Part shown: positions 9,539 to 25,727 of the stretch, piece after piece
How the letters are laid out: every line of letters begins with the position of its first letter
Numbering within the stretch: position 1 is the stretch's first letter
Assembly: GCF_012927275.1 (NCBI RefSeq)
Contig: NZ_JABBGG010000009.1
Span: 62,001-126,000 of the forward strand
DNA length: 64,000 nucleotides
DNA from: Massilia polaris
GTDB taxonomy: Bacteria; Pseudomonadota; Gammaproteobacteria; Burkholderiales; Burkholderiaceae_D
Direction: 5' to 3'
The notes under the pieces: model-generated
Database searches by the model: none
The model's input: the letters and a program-made list of their open reading frames with translations, nothing else
What the model was told of the DNA's origin: nothing
Position numbers and translations under genes: made by a program

Positions 9539-10438
9539 TTACACAAACGCCGCCAGCGAACCTTTCATTTTCTTCAGTGCCGCCGCTTCGATCTGGCGGA
9601 TACGCTCGGCGGACACGCCGAATTCGGCAGCCAGCGTGTGCAGGGTCGCACCCGAGCCATCGTCGTTGGCCAGCCAGCGCGCTTCGATGATGCGGCGCGA
9701 ACGCGGGTCCAGCTTCGACAGCGCCGACGCCAGTCCCTCCGACTGCAGGCGCGTGACCTGCTCGGCTTCCAGCACCTTGGTCGGCTCCGACAGGTCGGAC
9801 GACAGGTAGGCGATTGGCGAGAACTTGTCGTCTTCGTCGTCGGTCGGCGATTCGAGCGCGATGTCGCGGCCCGACAGGCGCGTTTCCATCTCGATGACTT
9901 CTTCACGCTTGACGTCGAGCAGCTTGGCCAGCGCATCGATCTGGGTCGGCGACATCGCATCCAGACCCGTCTTGTTGCTGCGCAGGTTGAAGAACAGCTT
10001 GCGCTGGGCCTTGGTCGTGGCGACCTTCACCAGGCGCCAGTTCTTCAGGATGTATTCGTGCATTTCGGCCTTGATCCAGTGCATTGCATAGGACACCAGG
10101 CGAACGCCCTGGTTAGGATCGAAACGCTTGACCGCTTTCATCAGCCCGATATTGCCTTCCTGGATCAGGTCGGCGTGCGGCAGGCCGTAGCCAAGGTAGC
10201 CGCGCGCGATCGATACCACCAGGCGCAGGTGCGACAGCACCAACTCCTGTGCGGCGCCGAGGTCGTTGCTGTCGCGCAGGCGGCGGGCCAGCGACTGTTC
10301 TTCCTCATGCGTCAGCATCGGCAGACGGTTGACCGCCGAAATGTAGGCATCGATATTACCAAGATTGCCAGTAAATCCGAGTCCGAGAGCACGACTTCCA
10401 GTCGGAACCAGTGCGGATTGTGCGGACGTCATAGTCAT
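9539..10438 (-). CDS. rpoH: RNA polymerase heat-shock sigma factor RpoH (sigma-32)
   Basis: This 299-aa sigma factor directs RNA polymerase to heat-shock promoters. Region 1.2/2 (PMLTHEEEQSLARRL, LVVSIARGY, LIQEGNIGLMKAVKRFDPNQGVRLVSYAMHWIKAEM) is followed by the RpoH-specific box QRKLFFNLR (about residues 140-150), the DnaK/FtsH-sensitive region in E. coli. Region 4 ends with HTLAAEFGVSAERIRQIEAAALKKMK. GAGGAA is the ribosome-binding site. Length matches the family. A CIRCE operator covers the promoter, so HrcA probably adds transcriptional repression to the usual post-translational control. Downstream is a strong terminator, so it is monocistronic. Confidence 0.97.
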   Translation of the reverse strand: MTMTSAQSALVPTGSRALGLGFTGNLGNIDAYISAVNRLPMLTHEEEQSLARRLRDSNDLGAAQELVLSHLRLVVSIARGYLGYGLPHADLIQEGNIGLMKAVKRFDPNQGVRLVSYAMHWIKAEMHEYILKNWRLVKVATTKAQRKLFFNLRSNKTGLDAMSPTQIDALAKLLDVKREEVIEMETRLSGRDIALESPTDDEDDKFSPIAYLSSDLSEPTKVLEAEQVTRLQSEGLASALSKLDPRSRRIIEARWLANDDGSGATLHTLAAEFGVSAERIRQIEAAALKKMKGSLAAFV

Positions 10439-10571
10439 CTATTTCCTCGTAATGTGAGCAGTGCTGCATCGTCAATTTGCCATGGCAGCATTTCCCATGG
10501 AGCGACAGTTACGGTGTGTTACCCGGACGCTAGCGGTAGTGTTTTCGAATACTCTGCCAGGCGCTGGTCAT

Positions 10572-10601
10572 ATATTAGCACTCTCCAGCAACGAGTGCCA
10601 A
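10572..10601 (-). promoter_or_regulatory. Sigma-70-type promoter of rpoH
   Basis: On the minus strand TTGGCA (10601-10596) and TAATAT (10577-10572) are separated by 18 bp and direct transcription towards rpoH. The -35 lies inside the right CIRCE arm and the -10 overlaps the left arm, so HrcA binding would block polymerase. The 5' leader would be about 130 nt. Confidence 0.55.
10575..10601. promoter_or_regulatory. CIRCE operator (HrcA-binding site) upstream of rpoH
   Basis: TTAGCACTC (10575-10583), a 9-bp spacer and GAGTGCCAA (10593-10601) match the CIRCE consensus TTAGCACTC-N9-GAGTGCTAA with a single mismatch. HrcA binds such elements and represses heat-shock genes at normal temperature. The element coincides with the likely rpoH promoter. 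Confidence 0.88.
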
Positions 10602-10887
10602 TCGCCCCCAAATTTGCTTTTCGACATCAATTTAAGATTGCCGTACGGAAATATATTTAGAAGATTCCACTCTATGGCGAGCCAGGATTTACCGAATTGA
10701 GATGCGTCAAAAGTATTGCAGAGTAATCATGCAGGTACGGGCTTAAGACGGCCTTAAGACGCGCGGTCGATGCGTTCATTTTAAAGGAAGGGGGGAGCGA
10801 TTTCTGTACGATGAATCACTTTCGCGGCCGAAGCGGGAACTTGACCGCTAGCCCGGCGCGGCGGCCGGGATAGCGGGACGCGTGGCG
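10602..10887. other. Intergenic remainder between rpoH promoter and ftsX
   Basis: This stretch is AT-richer than the genes. It contains a tandem CTTAAGACG repeat with a 2-nt spacer (about 10742-10761) and a GC-rich imperfect hairpin near 10855-10872 just beyond the ftsX stop. No convincing open frame or RNA gene is visible. Confidence 0.4.
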
Positions 10888-11804
10888 TTAAGCCAGCCGC
10901 GCCAGGTGGCGGCGGATCGACAGCATGGCGCCGACCAGCCCGAGTCCGGCGCTGATGGCCAGCAAGCCGAGGCTTGCCAAAGGACCGAGCGGCAGCAGCA
11001 GGAACTCCGATGCGTACAGCCGGGCGAACTCGGCAACCGCGCTGTTGAGCGGCTGCAGCGACAACGCGACCGCGCCGAGCGCCACCACGCCGGCGCCAAG
11101 TCCGAGCAGCATGCCGGTGTAATAGAACGGACGGTGGATGAAGTTGTCGGTCGCGCCGAGCAGCTTGGCCATCGTGATTTCTTCGCGCTGGGTCAGCACC
11201 TGCAGGCGGATCGTGTTGAACACCACCGCGATCACCACCATGCCGAGCGTGACCGCCAGCAGCAGCAGCGCCAGGCGCAGCACATTGAGCAGGGCGGCGA
11301 GGCGCTTGACCCAGGCCGAGTCCACGTGCACCGCGTCGACGTTCGGCAGCGCGCGCAGCTTGTCGGCCAGCGTGTCGATGCCGGCGGCATCCCTGGCGCT
11401 GTCGTAGCCGTCGAGCTTGAGCACATAGCTGTCGGGCAGCGGATTCTCGCCCAGCGTATCGAGCACGTCGGCGGTTGCGCTCTTGGCCTTCAGTTTCTCC
11501 AGCGCTTCCTCGCGCGGCACGAAGGTAACGGTGGCGCGCTGCGCGCCGACGCTCTTCTCCAGTGCCGGCACCAGTGCGCGCGCCTGCTCGCGGGTCGCGC
11601 CGGGCGACACGAACAGGCTCAGTTCAGGTTCGACCGCAAGCTGTTGCGACAGCGGCCTGACGTTGTCGAGCAGGGTCAGGCCCGCGAACGGCAGCGCCAG
11701 TGCGATGGCGACGACGATCACATTGAACAGGAAGCTGCCCGGCGCGCGGCGGATGGTGGCGAACGCGCCGTCGAGCGCGAAGCGGTGTTGGCGGATCCAG
11801 CTCT

Positions 11805-11808
<4 letters not shown>
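10888..11808 (-). CDS. ftsX: Cell-division ABC transporter permease FtsX
   Basis: This 306-aa inner-membrane subunit of the FtsEX complex couples ATP use by FtsE to activation of septal peptidoglycan hydrolases and divisome assembly. It has the type VII ABC topology: TM1 (residues about 25-45), a large periplasmic domain (about 50-165), then three TM segments with the permease motif TQREEITMAKLLGATDNFIHRPFYYTG. Its ATG overlaps the ftsE stop by 4 nt. It is the last gene of ftsY-ftsE-ftsX. Length is typical. Confidence 0.96.
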
Positions 11809-12464
<656 letters not shown>

Positions 12465-12470
12465 GAGGCC

Positions 12471-13730
12471 TTATCCGAGCAGCGCTTCGACAAATTCGTC
12501 AGCCTTGAATGGCTGCAGGTCTTCGATCTTCTCGCCCACGCCGATGAAATACACCGGCACCGGGCGGGTGCGCGCGATTGCTGCCAGCACGCCGCCTTTC
12601 GCGGTGCCGTCCAGTTTCGTGATGACGAGGCCAGTCAGGGTCAGCGCGTCGTCGAAGGCCTTGACCTGCGCCAGCGCGTTCTGTCCGGTGTTGCCGTCGA
12701 TGACCAGCAGCGTCTCGTGCGGGGCGCCTTCCATGCCCTTGCCGATCACGCGCTTGATCTTGCGGAGTTCTTCCATCAGGTGCAGCTGGGTCGGCAGGCG
12801 TCCGGCCGTGTCGACCATGACCACGTCCATGCCGCGCGCTTTACCCGACTGCACCGCGTCGAAGGCGACGGCGGCCGGATCGCCCGACTCCTGCGAGATG
12901 ACGGTGACGTTGTTGCGCTGTCCCCAGACCATCAGCTGTTCGCGCGCGGCGGCGCGAAAGGTGTCTCCCGCGGCCAGCAGCACCGACTGGTGGTAGGTCT
13001 GCATGTGCTTGGCCAGCTTGCCGATGGTGGTGGTCTTGCCGGCGCCGTTGACGCCCGCAATCATCATCACCAGCGGTTCGTAGCGGCCCAGCTCCAGCGG
13101 CTTTTCGAGTGGACGCAGCATGTCGGTCATCAGCACCTTGAGCGCGGCCTTGACCTCGACGGCGTCGAGCAGCTTGTCTTCCTTGACTTTCCTGCGCAGC
13201 GCGTCGAGCAGGTGCTGGGTGGCGTCCATGCCCGCGTCGGACATCAGCAGCGCCGCTTCCAGTTCTTCGTACAGGTCTTCGTCGATGCGGGCGCCGACAA
13301 ACAGCAGGCTCAGGTTGTTGGACGTCTTCGACAGGCCGGCCTTGAGGCGGTCCATCCAGGATTTTTTGCGGTCCGCTTCGCTGCCGAGGCGTTCGGCGGT
13401 TTCCGGGATCAGCTCGGCGACTTCGACGACTGGAGCGGGAGCGGGAGCAGGTTCTGGTGCGGGCACCGGCGCCGGTTGAACGACTGGCGGGGCGACGGGT
13501 GCAGGCGCAACCGGCTGCAGCACTGGCGGTGCGGAAAATGTCGAGGTTGTGCCGTAGCGGCGCGCCATGCCGGATGGCGCTGGCGCTGGAGCCGGAACAG
13601 GCGTCGGCGCCACAGGCGCGGCAGGCTCAACGTGAACAGGTGCAACCGGCGCAGGAGCAGGCGGCGGCGCGATTGGCTCGGGCGCCGCACTCTCTTCCGG
13701 GCGGAGAATTTTTTTGAAGAAACTAAACAT
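12471..13730 (-). CDS. ftsY: Signal recognition particle receptor FtsY
   Basis: This 419-aa SRP-GTPase docks ribosome-SRP complexes at the inner membrane. The first ~110 residues are a Pro/Ala-rich, low-complexity A-domain; then comes the N domain and the G domain with GVNGAGKTTTIGKLA (P-loop), DTFRAAAREQL, VDTAGRLPTQ and TKLDGTAKGG. The Pro/Ala stretch is richer than in E. coli, whose A-domain is acidic. It is first in the ftsY-ftsE-ftsX operon, a conserved arrangement. Confidence 0.97.
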   Translation of the reverse strand: MFSFFKKILRPEESAAPEPIAPPPAPAPVAPVHVEPAAPVAPTPVPAPAPAPSGMARRYGTTSTFSAPPVLQPVAPAPVAPPVVQPAPVPAPEPAPAPAPVVEVAELIPETAERLGSEADRKKSWMDRLKAGLSKTSNNLSLLFVGARIDEDLYEELEAALLMSDAGMDATQHLLDALRRKVKEDKLLDAVEVKAALKVLMTDMLRPLEKPLELGRYEPLVMMIAGVNGAGKTTTIGKLAKHMQTYHQSVLLAAGDTFRAAAREQLMVWGQRNNVTVISQESGDPAAVAFDAVQSGKARGMDVVMVDTAGRLPTQLHLMEELRKIKRVIGKGMEGAPHETLLVIDGNTGQNALAQVKAFDDALTLTGLVITKLDGTAKGGVLAAIARTRPVPVYFIGVGEKIEDLQPFKADEFVEALLG

Positions 13731-13838
13731 GGGTCTGTATCGGCGGGCGCTGCATGCACATTCCCTCGACTGCGGGGAACGATGAATTGGATCGCGCGTA
13801 TTTTACCAGAGCAGTGCCCGTGATTCTTGTCATCCTGT

Positions 13839-14777
13839 CTAATTGGCAAGCTCGACACGGCTGGTGCGCCAGCGGCCCACCGCACCGGCGATGCCCTCAA
13901 GGTCGAGCACGCAGTCGGGCCCCAGCTGGCGAATCAGCTGGGCTGCGCAGGCGCCGCCGATCCAGACCTCTGCGCTACCGTCCAGCCGTTCCTTCAGCTG
14001 GGAGATGTTGTCGATCGCGGCGCGCGATGAAATTCCGATAGAAAACGACAGCGCGACGACATCCGCGCGGTGGACTTTAGCGGCGGCAACGATCTCGGAC
14101 AGCGGCGTCTGCACGCCCAGCGAGATGCAGCATGCACCTTCCAGGGCAAACAGCGCTTCGGCCATCAGCAGGCCGAGGCCGTGGCGCTCCATCGGAACGG
14201 TGGTCAGCAGGATGCGCGGGCTGGCCTGGTCGCGCTCGTTCGGCTGGCTTGCGGCAAAGATCGCGGCGCGCATTACGCCTTGCAGTGTTTCCGCATACAG
14301 GTGTTCCTCGAACACGGCCAGGCGGCCGGCGGACCACGCATCTCCCACCAGCGTCGTCAGCGGCGCAACCAGCTCGGTGACGAAGCTGCGCAGGCCAAGG
14401 CGCAGCTGGGCCTGGACCATCGTTTGGCGCAGCTCATGCATCCGGTGCCCGGCAAGCAGCGCCATGCACTCGGCGAGCAGCGGGTCGTTGGCGTTGGGCG
14501 GCGGCGTGGTCGTCTTGCGCGCCGCCAGCTGGGCCAGCTCGTCGCCCGACAGGTTGACAATTTTTCCTGGACGGTAGCCGTTGTCGATCAGCCTCTTAAT
14601 TAGTTGCAACCGAACGCGTTGCTCCACCGAATATATCCGTTCACCGTTCGCATCCCGGCTTGGCTTGGGAAACTCATAGCGCCGTTCCCAGACGCGCAGG
14701 GTTTCCTTGGCGATACCGGTCTCGCGTTCAACCTCGCTAATGGTGATCATGCGTTCGGCGTGGGCATTGTTGCTCAT
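13839..14777 (-). CDS. Cobalamin-binding MerR-family regulator, LitR/CarH type
   Basis: This 312-aa protein is a predicted B12-dependent light-sensing repressor. An N-terminal MerR helix-turn-helix (ITISEVERETGIAKETLRVWERRYEFPKPSRDANGERIYS) is followed by a helical-bundle domain and a Rossmann-like B12-binding domain. Key cobalamin residues known from Thermus CarH are visible: W-x9-E-H in WSAGRLAVFEEH, which caps the upper axial face, and E-x-H-x-x-G in MERHGLG, whose His is the lower ligand. ATG at 14777 is chosen over an earlier ATG at 14825 because AGGA precedes it and it begins nearer the HTH. It is divergent from the fatty-acid modification operon, its likely target. In CarH, adenosylcobalamin gives dark repression and light releases it; the same here is inference. 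Confidence 0.88.
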   Translation of the reverse strand: MSNNAHAERMITISEVERETGIAKETLRVWERRYEFPKPSRDANGERIYSVEQRVRLQLIKRLIDNGYRPGKIVNLSGDELAQLAARKTTTPPPNANDPLLAECMALLAGHRMHELRQTMVQAQLRLGLRSFVTELVAPLTTLVGDAWSAGRLAVFEEHLYAETLQGVMRAAIFAASQPNERDQASPRILLTTVPMERHGLGLLMAEALFALEGACCISLGVQTPLSEIVAAAKVHRADVVALSFSIGISSRAAIDNISQLKERLDGSAEVWIGGACAAQLIRQLGPDCVLDLEGIAGAVGRWRTSRVELAN

Positions 14778-14896
14778 GGGTAATCCTGTGGTGGTGCCGG
14801 TATGTATAGGACAGAGTTTTTGCATTGTAAGCGTATCCGCGGCTGTTCAGCTACGGAAACTGAAACTCAATGCAAAGGCGCGAAATAGCTGTCTAG

Positions 14897-14963
14897 GACA
14901 AATAATTGACAATCGCACTTATATTGTGGATTATTCACATTGTAGAGGATTTGTCTTGGACAA
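14897..14963 (+). promoter_or_regulatory. Promoter and candidate LitR/CarH operator of the lipid-modification operon
   Basis: A perfect -35 TTGACA (14906-14911) is followed after 17 bp by GATTAT (14929-14934, 4 of 6). GACAA occurs as direct repeats exactly 11 bp apart (14897-14901 and 14908-14912), the second overlapping the -35. An inverted pair TTGTC-TTG-GACAA lies at 14951-14963, just past the expected start site. An 11-bp direct-repeat period over the -35 is what I recall for Thermus CarH operators. Binding is inferred. Confidence 0.55.
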
Positions 14964-14984
14964 AATTAAGGTGCTGGGAAGAAC

Positions 14985-16274
14985 ATGAAAACTGCAGTCA
15001 TCGGCGCCGGCATCTCCGGCCTGTCGAGCGCTTACAGGCTGGTCCAGGCGGGCGCCGACGTCACGCTGTTCGAAGCCGGGAGCTACTTTGGGGGACATAG
15101 CAATACGGTGGATGCCGACGTCGATGGTGTCCGTTTCGGCGTCGACACGGGCTTCCTGGTGTTCAACGAACGCACTTATCCGGAGCTGATCGGGCTGTTT
15201 GCCGAACTCGGCGTCGAAAGCGTCGCCAGCGACATGTCGTTTTCGGTCAAGCTGCCGCTGCCGGGCCGCACGCTCGAATGGGCCGGCAGTAATCTCGGCA
15301 CCGTGTTTGCCCAGCGCGGCAACCTGTTCAATCCGCGCTTCCTGCGCATGGTGCGCGACATCCTGCGCTTTAACAAGGAAGCCACCGCGCTGGCCGCCGG
15401 CGGTGACGCGATGCCGGCGCAGTCGCTGGGCCAGTTCCTTGATGAACGCCGCTACAGCACCGAGTTCCGCTACTGGTACCTGCTGCCGATGGCCGCCTGC
15501 ATCTGGTCCTGTCCCGCAGGTCAGATGCTGGCCTTCCCGGCCGCGACGTTTATCCGATTCTGTCACAACCACGGCCTGCTGCAGGTGAGCGACCGTCCGC
15601 AATGGCGCACGGTGCGCGGCGGTTCGCGCGTGTATGTGGACAAGCTGCTGGCCGCGATCCCGTCGCGCCGCCTTGACATGCCCGTGCAGTCGGTGACGCG
15701 CGCGGCGCATGGCGGTGCGCGCTCGGTGCGGGTCGAAACGGCCGCCGGCGCCGAGCAGTTCGACCAGGTCGTGCTGGCGTGCCACAGCGACCAGACGCTG
15801 GCGCTGCTGGGCGATGCGCGGGCCGATGAACGCGCCGTCCTCGGCGCCATCGGCTACCAGCCGAACCGCGCGGTGCTGCATACCGATGCCAGCTGCCTGC
15901 CCGCGAAGCGCCGCGCGTGGTCTGCCTGGAATTACCAGAGCACGGCGTCCGCCAGTCCACAGGTGTGCGTGCACTACCTGATCAACAAGCTCCAGCCGCT
16001 GCCATGCACGACGCCGGTGATCGTCTCGCTGAACCCGATCGACGAGCCGGACCCGCGCCTGGTGCTGGGCGAATTCGATTACGCCCACCCCGTGTTCGAT
16101 GCCGCTGCGGTGGCGGCGCAGGGGCGACTTCCCGCGCTACAAGGCGTGCAGGGCACCTGGTTCGCCGGCGCGTGGACCGGCTACGGATTCCACGAAGACG
16201 GACTCAAGTCGGGACTGTCGGTGGCGGCGGCGCTGGCGGCGCGCATGTCGGGGCAGGGCAATGCAGCCGCCTGA
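14985..16274 (+). CDS. FAD-dependent oxidoreductase (amine-oxidase/desaturase-like)
   Basis: This 429-aa flavoprotein opens with a Rossmann dinucleotide motif, AVIGAGISGLSSAYRL, followed by the FAD-binding acidic strand end LFEAGSYFGGHSNT. This pattern is shared with protoporphyrinogen oxidase, amine oxidases and phytoene-desaturase-like enzymes. The C-terminal FAD motif includes WFAGAWTGYGFHEDGLKSG. GGGAAG precedes the ATG. It is first in the operon and overlaps the DUF1365 gene by 14 nt. This exact trio (FAD protein, DUF1365, Cfa-like methyltransferase) is conserved in light- and singlet-oxygen-induced clusters, where fatty-acyl chains are modified. Oxidation of a membrane acyl chain is a reasonable but unproven role. 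Confidence 0.9.
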   Translation: MKTAVIGAGISGLSSAYRLVQAGADVTLFEAGSYFGGHSNTVDADVDGVRFGVDTGFLVFNERTYPELIGLFAELGVESVASDMSFSVKLPLPGRTLEWAGSNLGTVFAQRGNLFNPRFLRMVRDILRFNKEATALAAGGDAMPAQSLGQFLDERRYSTEFRYWYLLPMAACIWSCPAGQMLAFPAATFIRFCHNHGLLQVSDRPQWRTVRGGSRVYVDKLLAAIPSRRLDMPVQSVTRAAHGGARSVRVETAAGAEQFDQVVLACHSDQTLALLGDARADERAVLGAIGYQPNRAVLHTDASCLPAKRRAWSAWNYQSTASASPQVCVHYLINKLQPLPCTTPVIVSLNPIDEPDPRLVLGEFDYAHPVFDAAAVAAQGRLPALQGVQGTWFAGAWTGYGFHEDGLKSGLSVAAALAARMSGQGNAAA

Positions 16275-17046
16275 CGCCCCAGTGCCGCAGCTGTGTTTCG
16301 GCCAGGTGCGTCACCGGCGCCTTCGGCCGCGAGCGAACGCGTTCGCCTACGCCAGCTACTACCTGCGCCTTCCGATTCGCACGCTGGGTGCGCAGGGCTT
16401 CGGCTGCAAGCTCGTAACGCGCAACCGCTTCAACCTGCTGTCGTTCTTCGACGCCGACCATGGCAACGGCGAGCGTCCGCTGGTCGAATGGATCGACGCG
16501 CTGCTTGAATCCGAAGGCGTGCACGATGCCGATGGCGAGATCTGGCTGCAGGCGATGCCGCGGGTGCTGGGGTTTGCGTTCAACCCGGTGTCGTTCTGGT
16601 ACTGCCACCAGGCCGGCGGCGCCCTGCGCGCGGTGCTGTGCGACGTGCGCAACACCTTCGGCGAGCGCCACTTCTACCTGCTCGATAACGGCGCCGCGAT
16701 TGCAAACGGCAGCGAGCTGTGTGCCCGCAAAGTGTTCCACGTGTCGCCGTTCTGCCGCGTCGAAGGCGGCTACCGCTTCCGCTTTTTGCGTGCGGTTCGC
16801 GACGACGGTGAACACACGCTGGCATGCATCGATTACGACGACGCCGACGGCCTGCTGCTGCAAACAAGCCTGTCGGGACTCGCCACCCGCCTGTCCGACG
16901 CCAGCGCGGCACGGGCGTTTTTCGGTTTTCCCCTCATGACCTTCGGCGTCGTTGCGCGCATCCACTTGCAGGCCTTGCGTCTGTGGCTGCGCCGCGTGCC
17001 TTTCCATTCCAAACCCGCTCCTCCTGAACAAAAGGTTAGCCGATGA
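16261..17046 (+). CDS. DUF1365 family protein
   Basis: This 261-aa protein belongs to the DUF1365 family, whose signature CFGQVRHRRLRPRANAFAY and later FNPVSFWYCHQ, VRNTFGERHFYLL and FHVSPFCRVEGGYRF are evident. Function is not established; the gene almost always neighbours the FAD oxidoreductase and Cfa-like methyltransferase. The ATG at 16261 is chosen because it is preceded by GGGCAGGGC and begins right before the conserved region; a longer upstream frame lies inside the previous gene. It overlaps both neighbours (14 nt and 4 nt), so translational coupling is likely. Confidence 0.9.
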   Translation: MQPPDAPVPQLCFGQVRHRRLRPRANAFAYASYYLRLPIRTLGAQGFGCKLVTRNRFNLLSFFDADHGNGERPLVEWIDALLESEGVHDADGEIWLQAMPRVLGFAFNPVSFWYCHQAGGALRAVLCDVRNTFGERHFYLLDNGAAIANGSELCARKVFHVSPFCRVEGGYRFRFLRAVRDDGEHTLACIDYDDADGLLLQTSLSGLATRLSDASAARAFFGFPLMTFGVVARIHLQALRLWLRRVPFHSKPAPPEQKVSR

Positions 17047-18278
17047 ATTCCGATTTCATGCCGTCCACGGCCCCGGTCGCCGTGCCCGCGCGCGCCCGCA
17101 AGCAGCCCGTCCCAACATCGGCGCGTATGGTCCTGCGCCTGCTGGAGAAAATCCAGCACGGCACGCTGCAGCTTCGCACGCCAGCCGGCCAGCACCTTGT
17201 GTTCGGCGCCGGCGGCGTGCCGGTCACGCTGGAACTGAACAACTGGAGCGTGTTCGCAGCGGCCCTGCGCTCCGGCGATATCGGTTTTGCCGAGTCGTAC
17301 ATCGCAGGCGGCTGGCACACCAGCAGCCTTACCGGCCTGCTGGAACTGCTGGCGAAGAACCGTGACCAGGTCGAATCGGCGCTGTACGGCAGCTGGTGGG
17401 GACGGCTGGCCTACCGCGCCCGCCACCTGCTGAACCGGAACAGCCGCGCCGGTAGCCGCAAGAACATCCACGCCCACTACGATATCGGCAACGCGTTCTA
17501 CAAGCTGTGGCTCGACCCGTCGATGACGTATTCGAGCGCGCGCTTCACCGCCGCCAGCGGCGACGACCTGGCACTGGCCCAGGCCGAAAAATACCGCGGC
17601 GTGCTTGGCCAGCTGCGGCTCGATCCCGGCCAGCGGGTGCTCGAAATCGGCTGCGGGTGGGGCGGGTTTGCCGAAGTCGCCGCGCGCGAGGCGGGCGTGC
17701 ACGTCACCGGCCTGACCTTGTCGGAGCAGCAGCTGGCCTACGCCACCCAGCGGATGCAAGATGCCGGCCTCGCGCACATGGCGGACCTGAAACTGTGCGA
17801 CTACCGCGACAGCGACGGCCAATACGACGCCATCGCCTCGATCGAAATGTTCGAAGCGGTGGGCGAGGCTTACTGGCCGAGCTACTTCGACTGCATCGCC
17901 CGCAACCTCAAACGCGGCGGCCGCGCCTGCGTGCAAACCATTGTCATCGCCGACGAACTGTTCGAACGCTACCGCAAGGGCACGGACTTTATCCAGCAGT
18001 ACATCTTCCCCGGCGGGATGCTGCCGTCGCCGCAGGCCTTCACCCGCATGGCCGGGGAAAGAGGGCTAAAAGTCACCCGCGAATTCGCCTTCGGCATCGA
18101 CTACGCAGATACGCTGGCGGCATGGCGCGTCGCGTTCCACGCCAACCTCGACGCCGTGCGCGCGCAGGGATTCGACGAGCGCTTTATCCGTACCTGGGAC
18201 TTTTACCTGGGTTACTGCGAGGCCGCGTTCAGGGCGCACAACACCAGTGTCGTGCACTTCACGCTGGAGAAGGCCTGA
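17043..18278 (+). CDS. Cyclopropane-fatty-acid-synthase-family SAM methyltransferase
   Basis: This 411-aa enzyme is predicted to methylate double bonds of phospholipid acyl chains using S-adenosylmethionine. The N-terminal domain (about 1-125) is the Cfa lipid-binding part; the catalytic domain contains NIHAHYDIGNAFYKLWLDPSMTYSSA, SAM motif I VLEIGCGWGGFAEVA and FIQQYIFPGGMLPS. In Rhodobacter sphaeroides a Cfa homologue (UfaM) makes methylated unsaturated acyl chains that lead to furan fatty acids; this operon's gene set suggests a similar product, but the choice between cyclopropane and methyl-alkene cannot be made by eye. ATG overlaps the DUF1365 stop by 4 nt. Confidence 0.92.
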   Translation: MNSDFMPSTAPVAVPARARKQPVPTSARMVLRLLEKIQHGTLQLRTPAGQHLVFGAGGVPVTLELNNWSVFAAALRSGDIGFAESYIAGGWHTSSLTGLLELLAKNRDQVESALYGSWWGRLAYRARHLLNRNSRAGSRKNIHAHYDIGNAFYKLWLDPSMTYSSARFTAASGDDLALAQAEKYRGVLGQLRLDPGQRVLEIGCGWGGFAEVAAREAGVHVTGLTLSEQQLAYATQRMQDAGLAHMADLKLCDYRDSDGQYDAIASIEMFEAVGEAYWPSYFDCIARNLKRGGRACVQTIVIADELFERYRKGTDFIQQYIFPGGMLPSPQAFTRMAGERGLKVTREFAFGIDYADTLAAWRVAFHANLDAVRAQGFDERFIRTWDFYLGYCEAAFRAHNTSVVHFTLEKA

Positions 18279-18279
18279 C

Positions 18280-18810
18280 ATGGCGCGCCGCTTCCAGGCC
18301 GCCTTGATGGCCGCCTTGCTTGCCTTCGGCGCGGCCCACGCGGCCATGCCGAATATCGCCGCCGATGTGCCAGGCGCGCGCGTGGCCGGACAGGGCGGGT
18401 TCACCTGGTTCGGCATGAAGATCTACGATGCCAGGCTGTGGGTCGGCGACGCAGGTTATGTGCCGGACGCGCCGTTTGCGCTCGAGCTGCGCTACGCGCG
18501 CACGCTCAGCGGCGCCAGGATCGCCGAGGCAAGCGCCGGCCAGATGGAGAAAACAGGCGGCGGCACCCCCGCCCAGCGCGCCGCCTGGTTGAACCAGATG
18601 CGCGCTATCTTCCCGGACGTGAAGGAGGGTAGCAGCATCACCGGCGTGTTCCTTCCCGGAGGCGCTGTGCGCTTCCACCTGGACGGCGCGGACCTGGGTA
18701 CCATCGCCGAACCGGGCTTCGCGCAGGCCTTCGCCGGCATCTGGCTCAGTCCCCGCACTACCGCGCCGCGCCTGCGCGAAGCGCTCCTCAAGGAAGCGGC
18801 GCGGCGATGA
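18280..18810 (+). CDS. Chalcone-isomerase-like exported protein
   Basis: This 176-aa protein has a signal peptide (MARRFQAALMAALLAFGAAHA, cleavage likely after AHA at about residue 21). The mature part contains GFTWFGMKIYDARLWV and FALELRYARTLSGARIAEAS, typical of the bacterial 'chalcone isomerase-like' (CHI) fold. The proteobacterial members sit in the periplasm and probably bind fatty acids rather than isomerise flavonoids. The ATG at 18280 is 1 nt after the methyltransferase stop; an upstream ATG at 18247 would lie inside that gene and destroy the signal peptide. It overlaps the MFS gene by 4 nt. Confidence 0.87.
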   Translation: MARRFQAALMAALLAFGAAHAAMPNIAADVPGARVAGQGGFTWFGMKIYDARLWVGDAGYVPDAPFALELRYARTLSGARIAEASAGQMEKTGGGTPAQRAAWLNQMRAIFPDVKEGSSITGVFLPGGAVRFHLDGADLGTIAEPGFAQAFAGIWLSPRTTAPRLREALLKEAARR

Positions 18811-20042
18811 GCCGCCTGGCCATGCCCCAGCTGATGTCCTACGGCCTGCTTGGCTTGCCGCTGGCGATGGTCGCGCTACCGATTTACGTCTATCTCCCGA
18901 AGTTTTACGCCGAGCGCTCCGGATTGTCGCTGGCGCTGATCGGCGCGGCGCTGCTGGCGGCGCGCGTCGGCGCGGCCTTTCTCGACCCGCTGCTGGGGTG
19001 GTGGATCGAACGCGGGCGCGGCGCGTTTGCTCGCTTTGTCGGCATAGGCTCGCCGCTGCTGCTGGCCGGCTTCGTGGCGCTGTTCCATCCGCCCGCGCTG
19101 GAGGGCGCGAGTGCGCTGGCGTGGTTTCTCGGAACCCTGATGCTGGTGTACCTGGGCTTCGGGCTGGTGACCATCGCACACCAGAGCTGGGGCGCTGCGC
19201 TGACGCAGGCGCCGGTCGAACGCGCGCGCGTCTGCGGCGTGCGCGAAGCATTCGCGCTGGCCGGCGTGGTGCTGGCGGCCGCCGTCACCAGCGTCGCCGG
19301 ATATGGCGCGCTGTCGCTCTCGTTCGCGCTGGCGCTGGGCAGTGGCGCGCTGCTGCTGATTGCCAAAGCCCCCCGTCCGGTGATGGTCACGGCCAGCGCA
19401 GGATTGCCGGGCATGAGAGCGATCGCAGCGCCGTTCGCCAACCGCCGCTTCCGGGCACTGTTCGCCATCCTGATCGTCAACGGCGTCGCCTCCGCCATCC
19501 CCGCCACGCTATTCCTGTTCTTCGCCTCCGACCGCCTCCAGCTTGGGTCGATCGCGGGCCTGTTCCTGATCCTGTACTTCGTCGCCGCCGCCTGTTCGGT
19601 AGCGCCGTGGGTGGCGGCGGCGCGCCAGGTTGGCGAAGCGCGCGCATGGGCAGGGGGCATGCTGGGGTCGGCGCTGGTGTTTGTGTGGGCTTTCGGCCTG
19701 GGGCCGGGCGATGCGATTGCCTTCGGCGCGATCTGCATCGCGTCCGGCTTCGCACTCGGCGCCGACCTTGCGCTGCCGCCCGCGCTGCTGGCCGGCGTGA
19801 TCGCCAGCGCGGGCCACGCGGGCCAGCGCGAGGCGGCCTACTTCGGCGTCTGGAACTGGGGAATTCAAATCACATTGGCACTGGCGGCGGGGATCTCGCT
19901 GCCTTTGCTCGACTGGCTGGGCTATGTGCCCGGCAGCACCGCAGGCACGGGCGCTCTCGCCGCAGCCTATGCATTTCTTCCATGCGTACTGAAACTGTTC
20001 GCCGCCGCGATGCTGTGGCGCGCCCCTTTACGCGATTGCTGA
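18807..20042 (+). CDS. MFS transporter (GPH-like)
   Basis: This 411-aa inner-membrane protein has about 12 hydrophobic segments. Features such as PIYVYLPKFYAERSGLSLALIG, ARVGAAFLDPLLGWWIERGRG and the internal VFLW/AFLDP loop resemble glycoside-pentoside-hexuronide symporters. In the related Rhodobacter singlet-oxygen operon a transporter of this type is also present. The substrate is unknown; lipids or lipid precursors are possible from context. It overlaps the upstream gene by 4 nt and is followed by the DUF3833 gene after 21 nt. Confidence 0.88.
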   Translation: MSRLAMPQLMSYGLLGLPLAMVALPIYVYLPKFYAERSGLSLALIGAALLAARVGAAFLDPLLGWWIERGRGAFARFVGIGSPLLLAGFVALFHPPALEGASALAWFLGTLMLVYLGFGLVTIAHQSWGAALTQAPVERARVCGVREAFALAGVVLAAAVTSVAGYGALSLSFALALGSGALLLIAKAPRPVMVTASAGLPGMRAIAAPFANRRFRALFAILIVNGVASAIPATLFLFFASDRLQLGSIAGLFLILYFVAAACSVAPWVAAARQVGEARAWAGGMLGSALVFVWAFGLGPGDAIAFGAICIASGFALGADLALPPALLAGVIASAGHAGQREAAYFGVWNWGIQITLALAAGISLPLLDWLGYVPGSTAGTGALAAAYAFLPCVLKLFAAAMLWRAPLRDC

Positions 20043-20063
20043 CCAACCCGAAAGGAATCCGAC

Positions 20064-20600
20064 ATGAGACTCTCCACTGTACTGATGGCGGCCGCTGCCG
20101 CCGTTACGCTCGCGGCATGTACCGCGCCGCAGCCATCGCAATACGCCGGCGAGAAGCCGGTGCTCGACGTGCAGTCCTATTTCAATGGCACGCTGGACGC
20201 GCACGGCATGTTCCAGGACCGTTTCGGCAAAGTGGTCAAGCGCTTCGTGGTCGTCATGCGTTGCACCTGGAACGGCGACGTCGGCACGCTCGACGAGGAT
20301 TTTGTTTATTCGGACGGCACGCGCCAGAAGCGCGTCTGGACCTTGCGCAAGACCGGGCCCGCAAGCTTCACCGCGACCGCACCTGACGTTGTCGGCACAG
20401 CGGAAGGCATCGTGTCGGGCAATTCGCTGCGCTGGCGTTACGTGCTGTCGCTGCCGGTGGGCGAGCGCGTCATCGACGTCAGGATGGACGACTGGATGTT
20501 CCTGATTGACGACCGCGTGATGCTAAACCGTACCGCGATGAGCAAACTCGGTGTGGACCTCGGCAACGTCACAGTGTCGTTCACCAGGCGATTGCCGTGA
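20064..20600 (+). CDS. DUF3833 family lipoprotein
   Basis: This 178-aa protein has a lipobox (signal ending LAAC, Cys19) and is therefore predicted to be anchored in the membrane facing the periplasm. It shows the DUF3833 signatures DVQSYFNGTLDAHGMFQDRFG and DDWMFLIDDRVMLNRTAMSKLGVDLG. The molecular role is unknown. The family is a regular partner of the Cfa-like methyltransferase cluster. AAAGGAATCC lies before the ATG. It overlaps the SDR gene by 4 nt. Confidence 0.9.
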   Translation: MRLSTVLMAAAAAVTLAACTAPQPSQYAGEKPVLDVQSYFNGTLDAHGMFQDRFGKVVKRFVVVMRCTWNGDVGTLDEDFVYSDGTRQKRVWTLRKTGPASFTATAPDVVGTAEGIVSGNSLRWRYVLSLPVGERVIDVRMDDWMFLIDDRVMLNRTAMSKLGVDLGNVTVSFTRRLP

Positions 20601-21364
20601 ACCCGCGAATTCCCGAATGGCGCGGCAAGCGGATCTGGGTGATCGGCGCATCGACCGGCATCGGACAGGCAACGGCTGAACTGCTGCACGCGCTTGGCGC
20701 CACGGTCGCCGTGTCCGCACGGAGTGCCTCGAAGTTGCAGGCAACGGCGGCCGGCATGGAGCGCGCCATCGCGGTGCCGCTGGACGTGCTTGACCATGCG
20801 AGCGTGATGGGCGCGAGCGAACGGATCATCGGCGATTGGGGCGGCATCGACCTGGTGCTGCTGGTCGCCGGAGGCTATAACGACATGCGTGCCGATGCCT
20901 TCGACCTCGACGCGGCCAATGCGCTGGTCGACCTGAACCTGCGCGGCGCGTTCAACTGCATCGACGTGGTGCTGCCGCAGCTGCTGCGGCAAGGGGCGGG
21001 CGGCATCGGCATCGTGGCGTCGGTGGCGGGCTATGGCGGCTTGCCGAAGGCGCTGGTGTACGGGCCAACCAAGGCGGCGCTGATCAATCTCTCCGAATCG
21101 CTCTACCTCGACCTGCGCCCGCGAGGCATCGCGGTGTACCAGATCAATCCCGGCTTCGTCGCGACCCCGCTCACGGCCGATAACGACTTCCCGATGCCTG
21201 CGCTGATGTCCGCCAGCGATGCGGCGCTCGCACTGGTCGACGGCCTTGAGAAAGGCCAGTTCCACATCCATTTCCCGCGCCGGTTCACCAACACGCTGCG
21301 GCTGGCGCGCCTGCTACCGTACCGCCTGTACTTCTGGCTGGTTCACAAGGTGACCGGGTTATGA
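20597..21364 (+). CDS. Short-chain dehydrogenase/reductase
   Basis: This 255-aa NAD(P)-dependent oxidoreductase starts with GTG (overlapping the previous stop). The cofactor motif is IWVIGASTGIGQATAELL (TGxxxGIG type) and the active site Ser...Tyr-x3-Lys is VASVAGYGGLPKALVYGPTKAAL, with Tyr and Lys intact. The C-terminal extension (RFTNTLRLARLLPYRLYFWLVHKVTG) is basic and hydrophobic, suggesting membrane association and hence a lipid or carotenoid-like substrate. It belongs to the operon's fatty-acid modification set. The substrate is unknown. Confidence 0.9.
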   Translation: MNPRIPEWRGKRIWVIGASTGIGQATAELLHALGATVAVSARSASKLQATAAGMERAIAVPLDVLDHASVMGASERIIGDWGGIDLVLLVAGGYNDMRADAFDLDAANALVDLNLRGAFNCIDVVLPQLLRQGAGGIGIVASVAGYGGLPKALVYGPTKAALINLSESLYLDLRPRGIAVYQINPGFVATPLTADNDFPMPALMSASDAALALVDGLEKGQFHIHFPRRFTNTLRLARLLPYRLYFWLVHKVTGL

Positions 21365-21795
21365 ACAGGTCGGCCGAACTTGAGCGCCTGGTGCGGTTTT
21401 ACGAAACCATCGATGCGGCGACGCTGTTCGTACGGCTGGCCGCCATCTACGCGCCGGATGCGCACTTCAAGGATCCGTTCAACGAAGTGCAGGGGCGCGA
21501 CGCCATCGAACGTATTTTTGCCCACATGTTTCATCAGGTGGTTGATCCCCGATTCACGGTGGTGACAGGAGTCCAGCAGCAAAACCAGGCATTCGTGACC
21601 TGGGAGTTTCGCTTTCGGATGAAGCGGTTCAGCATGGAAGAGCAGTGCATTCGCGGCGCCAGCCATCTTGTTTTCGACGGCGCCGGCGCGGTGCAGCTGC
21701 ACCGCGACTATTGGGATGCGGCGGAAGAGCTTTACGAAAAGCTGCCGCTTCTGGGGGCGCTGATGAGAATGTTAAAGCGCGCCGCCGCGCGATAG
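21361..21795 (+). CDS. SnoaL-like / NTF2-fold protein
   Basis: This 144-aa protein has the alpha+beta NTF2-like fold: RLVRFYETIDAATLFVRLAAIYAPDAHFKDPFNEVQGRDAIERIFAHMF, then FVTWEFRFRM and HRDYWDAAEELYEKLP. Such domains bind small hydrophobic ligands and sometimes isomerise them. It closes the operon and overlaps the SDR gene by 4 nt. A convergent hairpin follows. Catalysis versus ligand binding cannot be decided. Confidence 0.85.
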   Translation: MNRSAELERLVRFYETIDAATLFVRLAAIYAPDAHFKDPFNEVQGRDAIERIFAHMFHQVVDPRFTVVTGVQQQNQAFVTWEFRFRMKRFSMEEQCIRGASHLVFDGAGAVQLHRDYWDAAEELYEKLPLLGALMRMLKRAAAR

Positions 21796-21805
21796 AATAT
21801 TTTCA

Positions 21806-21838
21806 GGCGGAACACGAGCCGGATAGCCCTGTTCCGCC
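21806..21838. terminator. Hairpin between convergent genes
   Basis: GGCGGAACA (21806-21814) pairs with TGTTCCGCC (21830-21838) around a 15-nt loop. It lies between the end of the lipid operon and the end of the TPP-enzyme gene. T-runs are weak on both strands, so factor-independent termination is only possible. Confidence 0.4.
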
Positions 21839-21854
21839 AGCTTCCATTACGGTC

Positions 21855-23558
21855 TTACTTCGCTGCTTTCGAGGCCATGGCGTTCTCGCGGATGGTCTCG
21901 AGCGTCGCATTCGGCGTGATCAGGTTGCCGTCGTAGCGCAACTCGATCAGTGCCGGCAGGCTGGTCGCGCGGGTGTGCTCGAGCGCGCGCGCCAGGGCCG
22001 GGCCGAAGGCTTCCGTCGTGTCGACCTGTTCGCCATGCGCACCGTAGGCCCGCGCCAGCGCGGCGAAATCGGGGTTGTGCAGTTCGGTGCCCGAAACGCG
22101 CCCTGGATAATCGCGCTCCTGGTGCATGCGGATCGTGCCGAACATCCCGTTGTTGAAGACGATGATGACCACGCCCGCCTTGTACTGCACCGCGGTGGCC
22201 AGCTCCTGCCCGTTCATCATGAACTCGCCGTCGCCCGCGAAGGTGACCACGGTGCGTTCCGGGTTGACGATTTTTGCGGCCACGCCGGACGGCACGCCGT
22301 AGCCCATCGCGCCGTTGGTCGGCGCCAGCTGCGTGCGCATGCCGCCGTAGCGGTAGAAGCGGTGTGCCCACGACGCGTAATTGCCCGCGCCGTTGGTGAT
22401 GAAGGTGTCGTGCGGGACGGCCTTCATCAGGTCCTGCACCACCTGCCACAAATCCAGCGGCGCCTTGCCGTCCTTGAAGATCGGCGGCTGCTGCTGGTAT
22501 GCCGCCAGTTCGGCCTTTGCTTCGGCGACGCTGGCGCTCCATGCGCTCGCATCGACGGGCGCCATCGCGGCCAGCATGGCGCATGCCTGCGGCGCGCCGC
22601 TGTTGATCATCAGGTCGGCCTGGAACACGCTGCCCAGCTCCTCGGCGTCGCAATGGAAGTGCACCAGCTTTTGCTGCGGCACCGGCGACGACAGCAGCGT
22701 GTAGCCGCCGGTCGTCATTTCGCCAAGGCGCGGGCCGATGGCGATGACCAGGTCCGCGTTCTTCACGCGCGCGGCCAGTTTCGGATTGATGCCGATGCCG
22801 ACATCGCCGATGTAGTTCGGGTGCTCGTTATCGAGCAGGTCCTGGAAGCGGAAGGTGCAGCCCACTGGCAGCGAATTGGCTTCGACGAAGCTGCGCACGT
22901 CGGCGCAAGCCTGGGCGTTCCAGGTGGCGCCGCCAAGCAGCACCACCGGGCGCTTCGCTTCGGCCAGCATGCCGCGCAAGGTGTCGATCTGGGCTGCGGA
23001 AGGGGAGGCTTGCACCGGCTGGTAGCGGCGCGTGTCGGCCACGCTGGCCGTCTCGATCAGCATGTCTTCAGGCAGGGCCAATACCACTGGGCCCGGACGG
23101 CCGCTGGTGGCGACCTGGAAGGCGCGCGCGATGTATTCGGGGATGCGGTCGGCGCGGTCGATCTGCGTGACCCACTTCGCCATCTGGCCGTACATGCGGC
23201 GGTAGTCGATTTCCTGGAACGCCTCGCGATCCATGAAGTCGCCGCCGACCTGGCCGATGAACAGGATCATCGGGGTCGAGTCCTGGTAGGCGGTATGGAC
23301 GCCGATCGACGCGTTGGTCGCGCCCGGGCCGCGCGTGACGAAGCAGATGCCCGGCTGGCCCGTCATCTTCCCGTAAGCCTCGGCCATGAACGCGGCGCCG
23401 CCTTCCTGGCGGTTGATGATGAAGCGAATGCTCGAATCATGCAGCGCGTCGAGGACGTCGAGATAGCTCTCGCCGGGCACGCCGAAGGCGGTGTCCACGC
23501 CGTGGATCTTGAGCGCATCGACCAGGATCTGGCCGCCGGTACGGGAAGGGTGCGTCAT
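21855..23558 (-). CDS. Thiamine-pyrophosphate enzyme, acetolactate synthase large-subunit-like
   Basis: This 567-aa cytoplasmic enzyme has the three-domain TPP fold. The N-terminal PYR domain includes the catalytic Glu in NRQEGGAAFMAEAYG; the C-terminal PP domain has the TPP/Mg motif GDGEFMMNGQELATAV...FNN. A central domain (about 190-330) is Rossmann-like. Close relatives are annotated as acetolactate synthase, benzoylformate decarboxylase or oxalyl-CoA-like enzymes. There is no adjacent small regulatory subunit (ilvH), which argues against the biosynthetic enzyme. Substrate unknown. Confidence 0.88.
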   Translation of the reverse strand: MTHPSRTGGQILVDALKIHGVDTAFGVPGESYLDVLDALHDSSIRFIINRQEGGAAFMAEAYGKMTGQPGICFVTRGPGATNASIGVHTAYQDSTPMILFIGQVGGDFMDREAFQEIDYRRMYGQMAKWVTQIDRADRIPEYIARAFQVATSGRPGPVVLALPEDMLIETASVADTRRYQPVQASPSAAQIDTLRGMLAEAKRPVVLLGGATWNAQACADVRSFVEANSLPVGCTFRFQDLLDNEHPNYIGDVGIGINPKLAARVKNADLVIAIGPRLGEMTTGGYTLLSSPVPQQKLVHFHCDAEELGSVFQADLMINSGAPQACAMLAAMAPVDASAWSASVAEAKAELAAYQQQPPIFKDGKAPLDLWQVVQDLMKAVPHDTFITNGAGNYASWAHRFYRYGGMRTQLAPTNGAMGYGVPSGVAAKIVNPERTVVTFAGDGEFMMNGQELATAVQYKAGVVIIVFNNGMFGTIRMHQERDYPGRVSGTELHNPDFAALARAYGAHGEQVDTTEAFGPALARALEHTRATSLPALIELRYDGNLITPNATLETIRENAMASKAAK

Positions 23559-23688
23559 GTTCTTGCCTCTAAGTTTAGGTATGCCTCATTCTATGCGAGC
23601 CTCGCGCGACCGGGCTTTTGAAATAACGACACCAAATTTAAGAATCGGAACGTCGCTGCCGTTGCCGGCGAGGGGCAAGAGCCGGTGC

Positions 23689-23831
23689 CCACCTGTTACA
23701 GGTCAACTTTGGGGTCAGGTCTGTCATTCGGACACGGGCGCAGCCGTAGTGCGGCGCACTACGGCTGCGCCCGTGTCCGAATGACAGACCTGACCCCCAC
23801 GAAGAGAGTCCAGCGGCGACCACCTGTTACA
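23689..23831. repeat. Perfect 42-bp-arm hairpin flanked by 12-bp direct repeats
   Basis: Bases 23711-23752 and 23756-23797 are perfect reverse complements with a 3-nt loop; the outer end reads GGGGTCAGGTCTGTCATTCG. The 12-mer CCACCTGTTACA flanks it at 23689-23700 and 23820-23831, the right copy merging into the rnpB -10 region (TACAAT, 23828-23833). This looks like a small non-autonomous element (MITE or REP-like) with a target duplication. Elements opening with GGGGTCAG are familiar to me from beta- and gammaproteobacterial REP/RAYT systems, but that link is from memory. Confidence 0.75.
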
Positions 23832-23842
23832 ATACGCCCCGT

Positions 23843-24196
23843 GAAGCAGGCCAAGGCAGCCGCTGGCTGGCGTGTAATGCGTCGGCGGGAGGAAGGTCCG
23901 GACTCCATAGAGCAGGGTGACGGTTAACGGCCGTCCGCTGAAAGCTTCCCGCGCAAGCGGGGGTATAAGGCGAGGAATAGGGCCACAGAGACGAGCGTAT
24001 TAAGTTACGGTGAAACGCGGTAACCTCCACCTGGAGCAATTCCAAATAGGCACGCGTTGATGTTGCTCGCGGAGCGTGCGGGTAGGAAGCTTGAGCGCCG
24101 GAGTAATTCGGCGCCTAGAGGAATGGCTGTCATAGCGAACGTTCGCAAGGGCGTTCGCCGTATACAGAATCCGGCCTATCGGCCTGCTTTACACTA
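23843..24196 (+). ncRNA. rnpB: RNase P RNA (bacterial type A)
   Basis: This is the catalytic RNA that matures tRNA 5' ends. The 5' end GAAGCAGGCC pairs with 3' GGCCTGCTTT to close helix P1. Universally conserved core segments are present: GAGGAAGGTCCGGACTCC, ATAGAGCAGGGTGACGG, CTCCACCTGGAGCAATTCC with AAATAGG, and ACAGAATCCGGCCTATCGG. The likely promoter -10 is TACAAT (23828-23833), 10 bp before the mature end; a matching -35 is not evident because the hairpin element lies there. Ends are estimated from P1 pairing. Confidence 0.95.
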
Positions 24197-24245
24197 ATTC
24201 TTACGGCCCAGGCAGACCTGCGGGCCACGCGCCGGGGCCTGATTG

Positions 24246-25727
24246 ATGACTCAATACATCCTCGCCCTCGACCAGGGCACCACCAGTTCCCGCGCCATCC
24301 TGTTCGACCGCGAAGGCCGCATCCGCGGCGCCGCGCAGCAGGAATATCCCCAGCACTTTCCCCAGCCCGGATGGGTCGAACACGACCCGCGCGATATCTG
24401 GAACAGTCAGCTGAAGGTGGCGCGCGAAGTGCTGCGCGCAAGCCACGTCGCGCATGCGCAGGTCGCCGCCATCGGCATCGCCAACCAGCGCGAGACCACC
24501 ATCGTCTGGGACCGCAAGTCGGGCGAGCCGGTGGCGAACGCCATCGTGTGGCAGGACCGGCGCACCGCCGGCGAATGCGACCGCCTTCGTGCCGAAGGCG
24601 TGGCCGAACGCATCGGCCAGCGTACAGGGCTTGAACTTGACGCCTATTTCTCGGCCAGTAAACTGGCGTGGCTGCTCGAACATGTGCCGGGAGTGCGGTC
24701 GCGCGCCGACCGTGGCGAGCTGGCGTTCGGCACCGTCGACAGCTGGCTGGTGTTCAAGCTGTGCGGGCGCCACGTCACGGACGCCAGCAATGCGTCGCGC
24801 ACGATGCTGTTTAATATCCACGAGATGAAATGGGATCAGGAGCTGCTGGACCTGTTCGGCATTCCTGCATCGATGCTGCCCGACGTGGTTGAAAGCGCGG
24901 GAGAGGCGGGGACCGCGTCGAGCGAGTGGTTCGGCGGCCCGATCCCGATTACCGGCATCGCCGGCGACCAGCAGGCGGCGATGTTCGGGCAGGCTTGCCA
25001 CCGTCCGGGCATGGTCAAGAACACCTACGGCACCGGTTGCTTCATGCTGATGCACGCCGGGCAGCGTCCGGCGGTGTCGCACAACCGGCTGCTGTCGACA
25101 GTCGGATGGAGCGTGGGCGGGACCACCGACTACCTGATCGAAGGCAGCGTGTTCATGGGCGGCGCGACGGTGCAGTGGCTGCGCGACGGGCTTGGCATCA
25201 TCCGCGAGTCGCATGAGGTCGAGGCGCTGGCTGCCAGTGTCCCCGATAACGGCGGCGTGTTTTTGGTGCCAGCGTTCGCGGGGCTGGGTGCGCCGCACTG
25301 GGACCCGTATGCGCGCGGCACGCTGGTCGGGATGACGCGCGGGACCAACAAGGGCCACATCGCGCGCGCGGCAGTGGAGGCGATCGCGTACCAGAGCGCG
25401 GAGCTGCTTGCGGCGATGTGCAGGGATGCGTCGGTGCCGGTCGCCGAAGTGCGCGCCGATGGCGGCGCTGCAAGGAATGACCTGCTGATGCAGTTCCAGG
25501 CCGATTTGCTCGGCGTGCCGGTGGTGCGGCCGCGCGTGACCGAAACCACGGCGCTTGGCGCCGCCTACCTGGCCGGGCTGGCGGTGGGATTCTGGGCGTC
25601 GCAGGAAGAGATTGCGGCGCAGTGGCAGGCCGAGCGCAGGTTCGAGCCGTCGATCGGCGCCGATGAGCGGCGCGGCTTGATGGCGCGCTGGGATGAGGCG
25701 GTGGCAAGGTCGAAGGGCTGGGCCTAG
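24246..25727 (+). CDS. glpK: Glycerol kinase
   Basis: This 493-aa cytoplasmic FGGY-family kinase phosphorylates glycerol to sn-glycerol-3-phosphate. It begins [20 protein letters not shown] (the phosphate-1 loop with the QGTTSSR signature), and has [33 protein letters not shown] and the family signature region [11 protein letters not shown]. Length equals that of typical GlpK. ATG at 24246 is used; a TTG one codon upstream is less likely. The ribosome-binding site is weak. It follows rnpB by 50 bp and has no glpF/glpD neighbour here. Confidence 0.95.

Follow-up and report, generated by a model that had tools for sequence, protein, structure and literature searches.

The locus and its genes

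The DNA considered here (the window) is a 64,000-nucleotide stretch of the 4.5-Mb genome of Massilia polaris (genome G000 of the set compared; contig NZ_JABBGG010000009.1, positions 62,001 to 126,000). Between positions 13839 and 21795, it carries a minus-strand gene for a regulator of the LitR/CarH family and, divergent from it, eight plus-strand genes in a single run (14985–21795), the first three of which resemble the furan fatty acid genes ufaD, ufaO and ufaM. All nine genes were confirmed by reading of the open reading frames (ORFs). The regulator gene (13839–14777) codes for 312 amino acids with a MerR helix-turn-helix (HTH), a helical cap and a B12-binding domain. Its ORF opens at 14825; the start at 14777 is the likely one because the close relative L101 starts there and the sequence AGGA precedes it.

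The operon opens with a UfaD-like flavin adenine dinucleotide (FAD) oxidoreductase of the amine-oxidase superfamily (14985–16274; Pfam amine oxidase and NAD_binding_8; nearest solved protein LkcE, 9.6e-43). It is followed by a UfaO-like DUF1365 protein (16261–17046; PF07103, E 5e-75) and a UfaM-like methyltransferase of the cyclopropane fatty acid (CFA) synthase family (17043–18278; Pfam CMAS, 3e-82), which also matches solved CFA synthases. The remaining five genes code for a chalcone-isomerase-like protein (18280–18810; Chalcone_3), an MFS_2 transporter (18807–20042; Pfam MFS_2), a DUF3833 protein whose start looks lipoprotein-like by eye (20064–20600; Pfam DUF3833, 1e-64), a short-chain dehydrogenase with a GTG start (20597–21364; adh_short) and a SnoaL-like protein (21361–21795; SnoaL_2). 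Of the seven junctions, four are 4-nt overlaps and one is a 14-nt overlap; the remaining two are gaps of 1 and 21 nt. The arrangement is far beyond chance, since the core gene order is preserved in relatives down to about 40–60% protein identity, some of them lacking the MFS or the chalcone-isomerase-like gene.

The intergenic region

Comparison of the intergenic regions of related loci revealed a 15-bp palindrome, TTTGTCNNNGACAAA. The window has two good copies in front of the operon, which are candidate operators: O1 (GCTGTCTAGGACAAA, 14888–14902) agrees at 10 of 12 positions and O2 (TTTGTCTTGGACAAA, 14950–14964), 62 bp from O1, at 12 of 12. The two copies bracket a sigma-70-type promoter on the plus strand, with O1 just upstream of the -35 element (TTGACA, 14906–14911) and O2 just downstream of the -10 element (GATTAT, 14929–14934; 17 bp spacer). 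O2 is the sole exact match to the palindrome in the whole genome. A third, weak copy (9 of 12, 14801–14815) lies 23 bp upstream of the regulator start. A blind repeat search of 14777–14985 recovered O1, O2 and this third copy as a direct repeat, with distances of 87 and 62 bp. In several relatives, copies that match as well or better are found close to the start of the regulator, and the weak copy is possibly an autoregulatory site.

The palindrome co-occurs with the regulator across loci. Regulator and ufaD-like gene are less than 400 bp apart in 31 loci, the window included, and 20 of these have the pair, spaced at 62 bp in 18 loci and at 63 bp in two; ten others have a single palindrome within 200 nt of ufaD. 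Of the 37 loci linked to the regulator, 27 have a site matching at least 11 of 12 positions in the 600 nt preceding ufaD; such a site occurs in 3 of the 42 other loci and in 5 of 395 random pieces. Among the three unlinked loci with a site, L098 starts about 300 nt before ufaD, and the genomes of L068 and L075 (G062 and G078) have the regulator elsewhere; these two loci have two sites each, spaced 63 and 64 bp. Where genes resembling glutathione peroxidase (GPx) or FolE2 separate the regulator from ufaD, as in seven loci, the sites (at least 10 of 12) adjoin the regulator. Likewise, 59 of 80 named loci and none of 285 control spans have a site with 11 or more of the 12 positions matched between -400 and +60 relative to the start of the regulator, and the commonest site spacings in the 80 loci are 62 and 63.

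Eighteen loci (L172–L174, L176–L183, L185, L186, L188, L189, L199, L201 and L211) have no ufaD-like gene adjoining the regulator. Their sources include Duganella, Rugamonas, Pseudoduganella, other Oxalobacteraceae and two metagenome-assembled genomes, and all 18 carry a site pair (each at least 9 of 12) at 62–64 bp; in 15, a gene that looks porin-like by eye stands beside the regulator. These loci suggest that the switch also acts on a different transcript or on the regulator's own gene. In addition, six genomes of the genus (L149–L154) have a palindrome (ATTGTCATGGACAAT, 10 of 12) ahead of a gene whose protein is 1227 to 1253 aa long; in the example at L151:4507, the protein has the architecture receiver-GAF-PAS-GGDEF-EAL. 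This palindrome is possibly a second target or the site of another regulator.

The regulator

The MerR_1, B12-binding_2 (helical cap) and B12-binding Pfam domains of the regulator all score above their cut-offs, the Rossmann-type B12-binding domain (PF02310) at E 7e-10. The nearest solved sequence is that of Thermus CarH (TtCarH), and a structure model of the regulator resembles TtCarH in fold and matches its B12 domains. The HTH contains the RxWERRY motif, and the cobalamin motifs W-x9-E-H and E-x-H-x-x-G read WSAGRLAVFEEH and ERHGLG. Residues were counted in an alignment of 38 sequences and, separately, in the 80 named loci. The equivalents of TtCarH W131, E141 and H142 are conserved in 38/38 and 80/80 sequences, and that of H177 in 38/38 and 78/80.

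With its MerR HTH, both B12 domains and both motifs, the regulator appears to belong to class I of the LitR/CarH proteins, and it shares all of these features with members from Thermus thermophilus, Bacillus megaterium and Myxococcus. It differs from them in lacking His132 and the salt-bridge pair of the TtCarH dimer (D201 in 0/80 named sequences, R176 in 28/80). The locus differs as well, having paired palindromes in place of tandem direct repeats and a lipid operon in place of carotenoid genes. The operators of TtCarH and BmCarH are described as tandem 11-bp direct repeats, and that of Myxococcus CarA as a pair of inverted repeats spanning about 55 bp (PMC9304148). Two assignments do not fit the data: a TtCarH-type CarH orthologue, given the score against the NCBIfam CarH equivalog (123 bits, cut-off 400), the absence of His132 and the lack of a tandem 11-bp operator; and LitR class II, which has the helical bundle only, given the presence of PF02310.

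Operon enzymes and the predicted lipid

The first three operon genes match UfaD, UfaO and UfaM in family and order. In Rhodobacter sphaeroides, UfaD (RSP1091) is described as having a predicted NAD/FAD domain, UfaO (RSP1090) as having DUF1365 and UfaM as a methylase dependent on S-adenosylmethionine; RSP1087–1089 are reported to be dispensable for furan in that species, and Rhodopseudomonas palustris has the same D-O-M order in RPA2571-RPA2570-RPA2569 (PMC7380195). In R. sphaeroides, ufaM is reported to be distant from ufaD and ufaO; in Halomonas, the three genes are consecutive and the UfaM yields 11-methyl-octadecenoate in Escherichia coli (PMC12089945). The Massilia locus shares the protein types and the gene order with these systems. 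It differs in control: Rhodobacter uses an extracytoplasmic function (ECF) sigma-E factor with ChrR, whereas Massilia has a sigma-70-type promoter, two palindromes and a MerR-type regulator.

In the methyltransferase, C139 of E. coli CFA synthase is replaced by Ser (79 of 80 sequences, one gap) and H266 by Gln (all 80). These replacements are no proof of UfaM identity, because cotton cyclopropane synthase (CPS) proteins are reported to share both in part (PMC3132707). By family and gene order, the operon is assigned to the UfaD-UfaO-UfaM type, and a furan product is predicted.

An earlier note on this DNA had proposed the CarH-type cobalamin motifs, the divergent eight-gene fatty-acid operon with mostly 4-nt overlaps and its likeness to the Rhodobacter ufa set. 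The motifs proved exact, with both B12 domains recovered by Pfam; the Pfam families bore out the operon, the overlaps holding at four junctions of seven, and the ufa likeness was upheld by family and published order. The operator pair and the promoter go beyond what that note reported.

Distribution and changes of regulator

The arrangement is widespread in Burkholderiales. Among 145 genomes of the family, the regulator was found in 51 at E<=1e-15 (49 when two HTH-only matches are excluded) and DUF3833 in 70; the two co-occur in 32 genomes (Fisher p 0.005). A ufaD-like gene was found in 79 loci: the regulator is present in 37 of them and a divergent TetR-type gene in 20, while 21 have neither and L098 is truncated by the end of its contig. 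Pfam confirmed TetR_N in two scanned loci and an ECF/RskA pair in L061; TetR or ECF and anti-sigma genes occupy the regulator's place in other Burkholderiales genomes. When the linked regulators are mapped onto a tree built from the three enzymes (79 rows), five changes are needed, against a mean of 34.5 after shuffling.

Neighbours of the regulator appear often to be photoprotective in kind, because tblastn searches of the 80 named loci found GPx-like genes in 19, FolE2-like genes in 13, photolyase-related (DPRP) genes in 11 and photolyase genes in seven. Similar genes were also seen beside lipid operons that are wired differently or lack the regulator. In L077, L079 and L092, a photolyase-like gene (Pfam-confirmed in L077) lies behind the TetR gene, divergent from the lipid operon, and in L051, L052, L053, L056 and L060 photolyase-related and GPx-like genes lie upstream and the regulator is missing (the pair in L051 was confirmed by Pfam). 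Two genomes have second regulator copies with one in-frame stop each (G062:C49:103800 and G177:C48:165134), which are probably decaying. In the window, the minus-strand neighbours at 9539–13730 were read by eye as rpoH, ftsX, ftsE and ftsY. Several Duganella-type loci have a comparable gene row after the regulator, so that it looks like a neighbourhood of long standing and not like a functional connection.

Light, B12 and carotenoid genes in the host

The earlier note had taken the host for a non-phototroph, and indeed no photosynthetic reaction-centre match was found in any of 17 genomes of the genus, this one included. Rubrivivax gelatinosus, in contrast, is a phototroph; since its locus L247 carries the same regulator with ufa-like genes, the arrangement is not restricted to non-phototrophs. 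The note had also seen no ChrR, sigma-E or photolyase. For the first two this stands, since no ECF sigma/ChrR pair was found in the operon or among the genes of 9539–25727; for photolyase it needs correction, as relatives have photolyase, photolyase-related, FolE2-like and GPx-like genes near the regulator, and this genome has an unlinked photolyase gene. Elsewhere in this genome, Cupin_7 (ChrR) gave two partial matches that cover about 60 of the 105 positions (best E 5e-8); among the other genomes, the match was strong (4e-33) only in G005 and weaker but nearly full-length in G014, G008, G010 and G015. The further suggestion that a light sensor had taken over control from ChrR was not borne out: the data give no direction, and several regulators alternate at the operon.

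A single cobalamin riboswitch was found in the genome, ahead of genes for a TonB receptor, a BtuC-like permease and a BtuF-like binding protein, none of which exceeds its own NCBIfam B12 cut-off. A PduO-type adenosyltransferase scores above its cut-off, and a search of the genome gave no BtuR/CobO match. By these matches, the organism probably imports B12 and can adenosylate it. Carotenoids are the usual output of CarH. Two SQS_PSY matches form one adjacent pair on another contig, which we take to be of the hopanoid type; carotenoid genes are thus not evident in the genome, and the genes divergent from the regulator appear to be of ufa type.

Proposed mechanism and alternatives

The genes, their domains, the ligand residues, the promoter and the operator pair with its co-occurrence with the regulator can be read from the DNA; binding of adenosylcobalamin (AdoCbl), repression, release by light, the lipid product and protection are predicted from them. 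It seems fairly probable that the regulator is an AdoCbl-dependent dark repressor related to LitR/CarH that controls the divergent furan fatty acid operon and is released by light. In the dark, the AdoCbl-bound regulator would sit on O1 and O2, enclose the promoter and block RNA polymerase, either directly or via a bridge between the sites. Green or blue light would cleave the Co-C bond, the regulator would leave the DNA and the operon would be expressed. The UfaM-like enzyme would then methylate cis-vaccenoyl chains, the UfaD-like enzyme would desaturate the methylated chains and the UfaO-like enzyme would oxygenate them to the furan, and the furan acyl chains would guard the membrane against singlet oxygen.

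Several results weigh against this reading. The equivalent of His132, the light-state cobalt ligand of TtCarH, is present in 0/38 and 0/80 sequences; His132 is reported to be required for break-up of the TtCarH tetramer (PMC10442372), and the TtCarH light step is not transferable to the Massilia regulator because this ligand is missing. The NCBIfam CarH cut-off is not reached, and the repeat search of 14777–14985 found no head-to-tail repeat, the operators being palindromes. One of the 31 close-pair loci, L130, has no palindrome although the regulator is linked; in G105, G110, G085 and G086, where a regulator homologue is encoded at another place in the genome, no site precedes ufaD (best 7, 9, 8 and 8 of 12). 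The 10-base core of the palindrome is not enriched genome-wide over a reversed control (7 vs 7 in this genome), and no operator was found in front of the genome's own photolyase, the one 10-of-12 match in 5 kb being intragenic. Finally, 17 of 49 regulator-bearing genomes lack DUF3833, 28 of the 80 named loci (two of them incomplete) lack a ufaD-like gene, and presence of the regulator does not track BtuR/CobO over the 145 genomes (p=0.73).

The absence of His132 also bears on the rather unlikely alternative that the regulator senses the supply of AdoCbl, or oxidation of cobalamin by reactive oxygen species (ROS), with light incidental; it would repress with AdoCbl and cease to do so without it or with oxidized B12. 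H132A TtCarH is reported to remain mostly tetrameric in light (PMC10442372), and B12 supply may vary in an organism that lacks BtuR/CobO and looks B12-importing. However, the photolabile adenosyl group is held by Trp131 and Glu141, neither of which varies, some relatives have genes of photolyase type close to the regulator, and CtMerR, with Arg at the place of His132, is reported to still lose its adenosyl group in light (PMC11796333). There is little likelihood that the wiring is right and the product is not a furan. A methyl-branched, cyclopropane or otherwise oxidized acyl chain would fit the five further operon genes, the indirect Ufa assignment and the residues shared with cotton CPS proteins, but the three Ufa types occur together in the published order, and the Halomonas UfaM with the methylated product comes from such a run. 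A B12-independent mode like that of CarA, in which an antirepressor or singlet oxygen inactivates the regulator and the B12 domain is structural, is very improbable: paired inverted repeats at the promoter do resemble the Myxococcus CarA operator (PMC9304148) and the salt-bridge residues are not conserved, but each B12 ligand residue is kept in at least 78 of the 80 named sequences, and no Pfam match among the nine genes, which were the extent of the search, suggests an antirepressor.

Relation to known systems and significance

Light control of a ufa-containing cluster by a LitR relative is already known from Pseudomonas, where class II LitR (PplR/PmlR) with LOV proteins is reported to control phrB and ufaM by light, in a cluster that also has an FAD oxidoreductase and a short-chain dehydrogenase (PMC9758184). 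As described there, these regulators consist of the helical bundle only, have short LOV partners and bind TGTACA-N12-TGTACA, whereas Massilia has a full B12 regulator and another operator. In Vibrio cholerae, a CFA-synthase-like gene and photolyase-family genes are reported to be induced by blue light in a response under ChrR/sigma-E and the MerR protein VCA0056; the regulators there are proposed to respond to ROS (PMC5241685). VCA0056 presumably belongs to class IV LitR, which is said to lack the B12 domain in Vibrio (PMC9758184). No report of a B12-type LitR/CarH protein on a ufa operon was found in the open-licence papers searched. The new elements are the full B12 regulator on this operon, the palindrome pair, the sensor without His132 and the repeated re-wiring.

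Together, the comparisons show a real and widely conserved module of B12-type LitR and ufa genes; its response to light, its binding of B12 and its lipid product are predicted. A broader proposal is put forward tentatively: in a large clade of CarH-like B12 photoreceptors of Burkholderiales, whose examined members all lack the bis-His ligand, another mechanism of light release and another DNA geometry, with two palindromes astride the promoter some six helical turns apart, may switch on furan synthesis from an operon that has been re-wired repeatedly (B12-LitR, TetR and other regulators; at least five changes on a quick tree). If so, membrane chemistry rather than carotenoids would be the output of a vitamin-B12 light sensor, and CarH proteins without His132 would form a natural set for testing how general the bis-His switch is. 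Massilia, Janthinobacterium, Noviherbaspirillum and Comamonadaceae would provide a genetic system for the role of furan fatty acids in non-phototrophs. The operator motif would let direct targets near the regulator be recognized in genomes, and the arrangement as a whole is suggestive of a membrane defence triggered by light in a bacterium that carries no photosynthesis genes.

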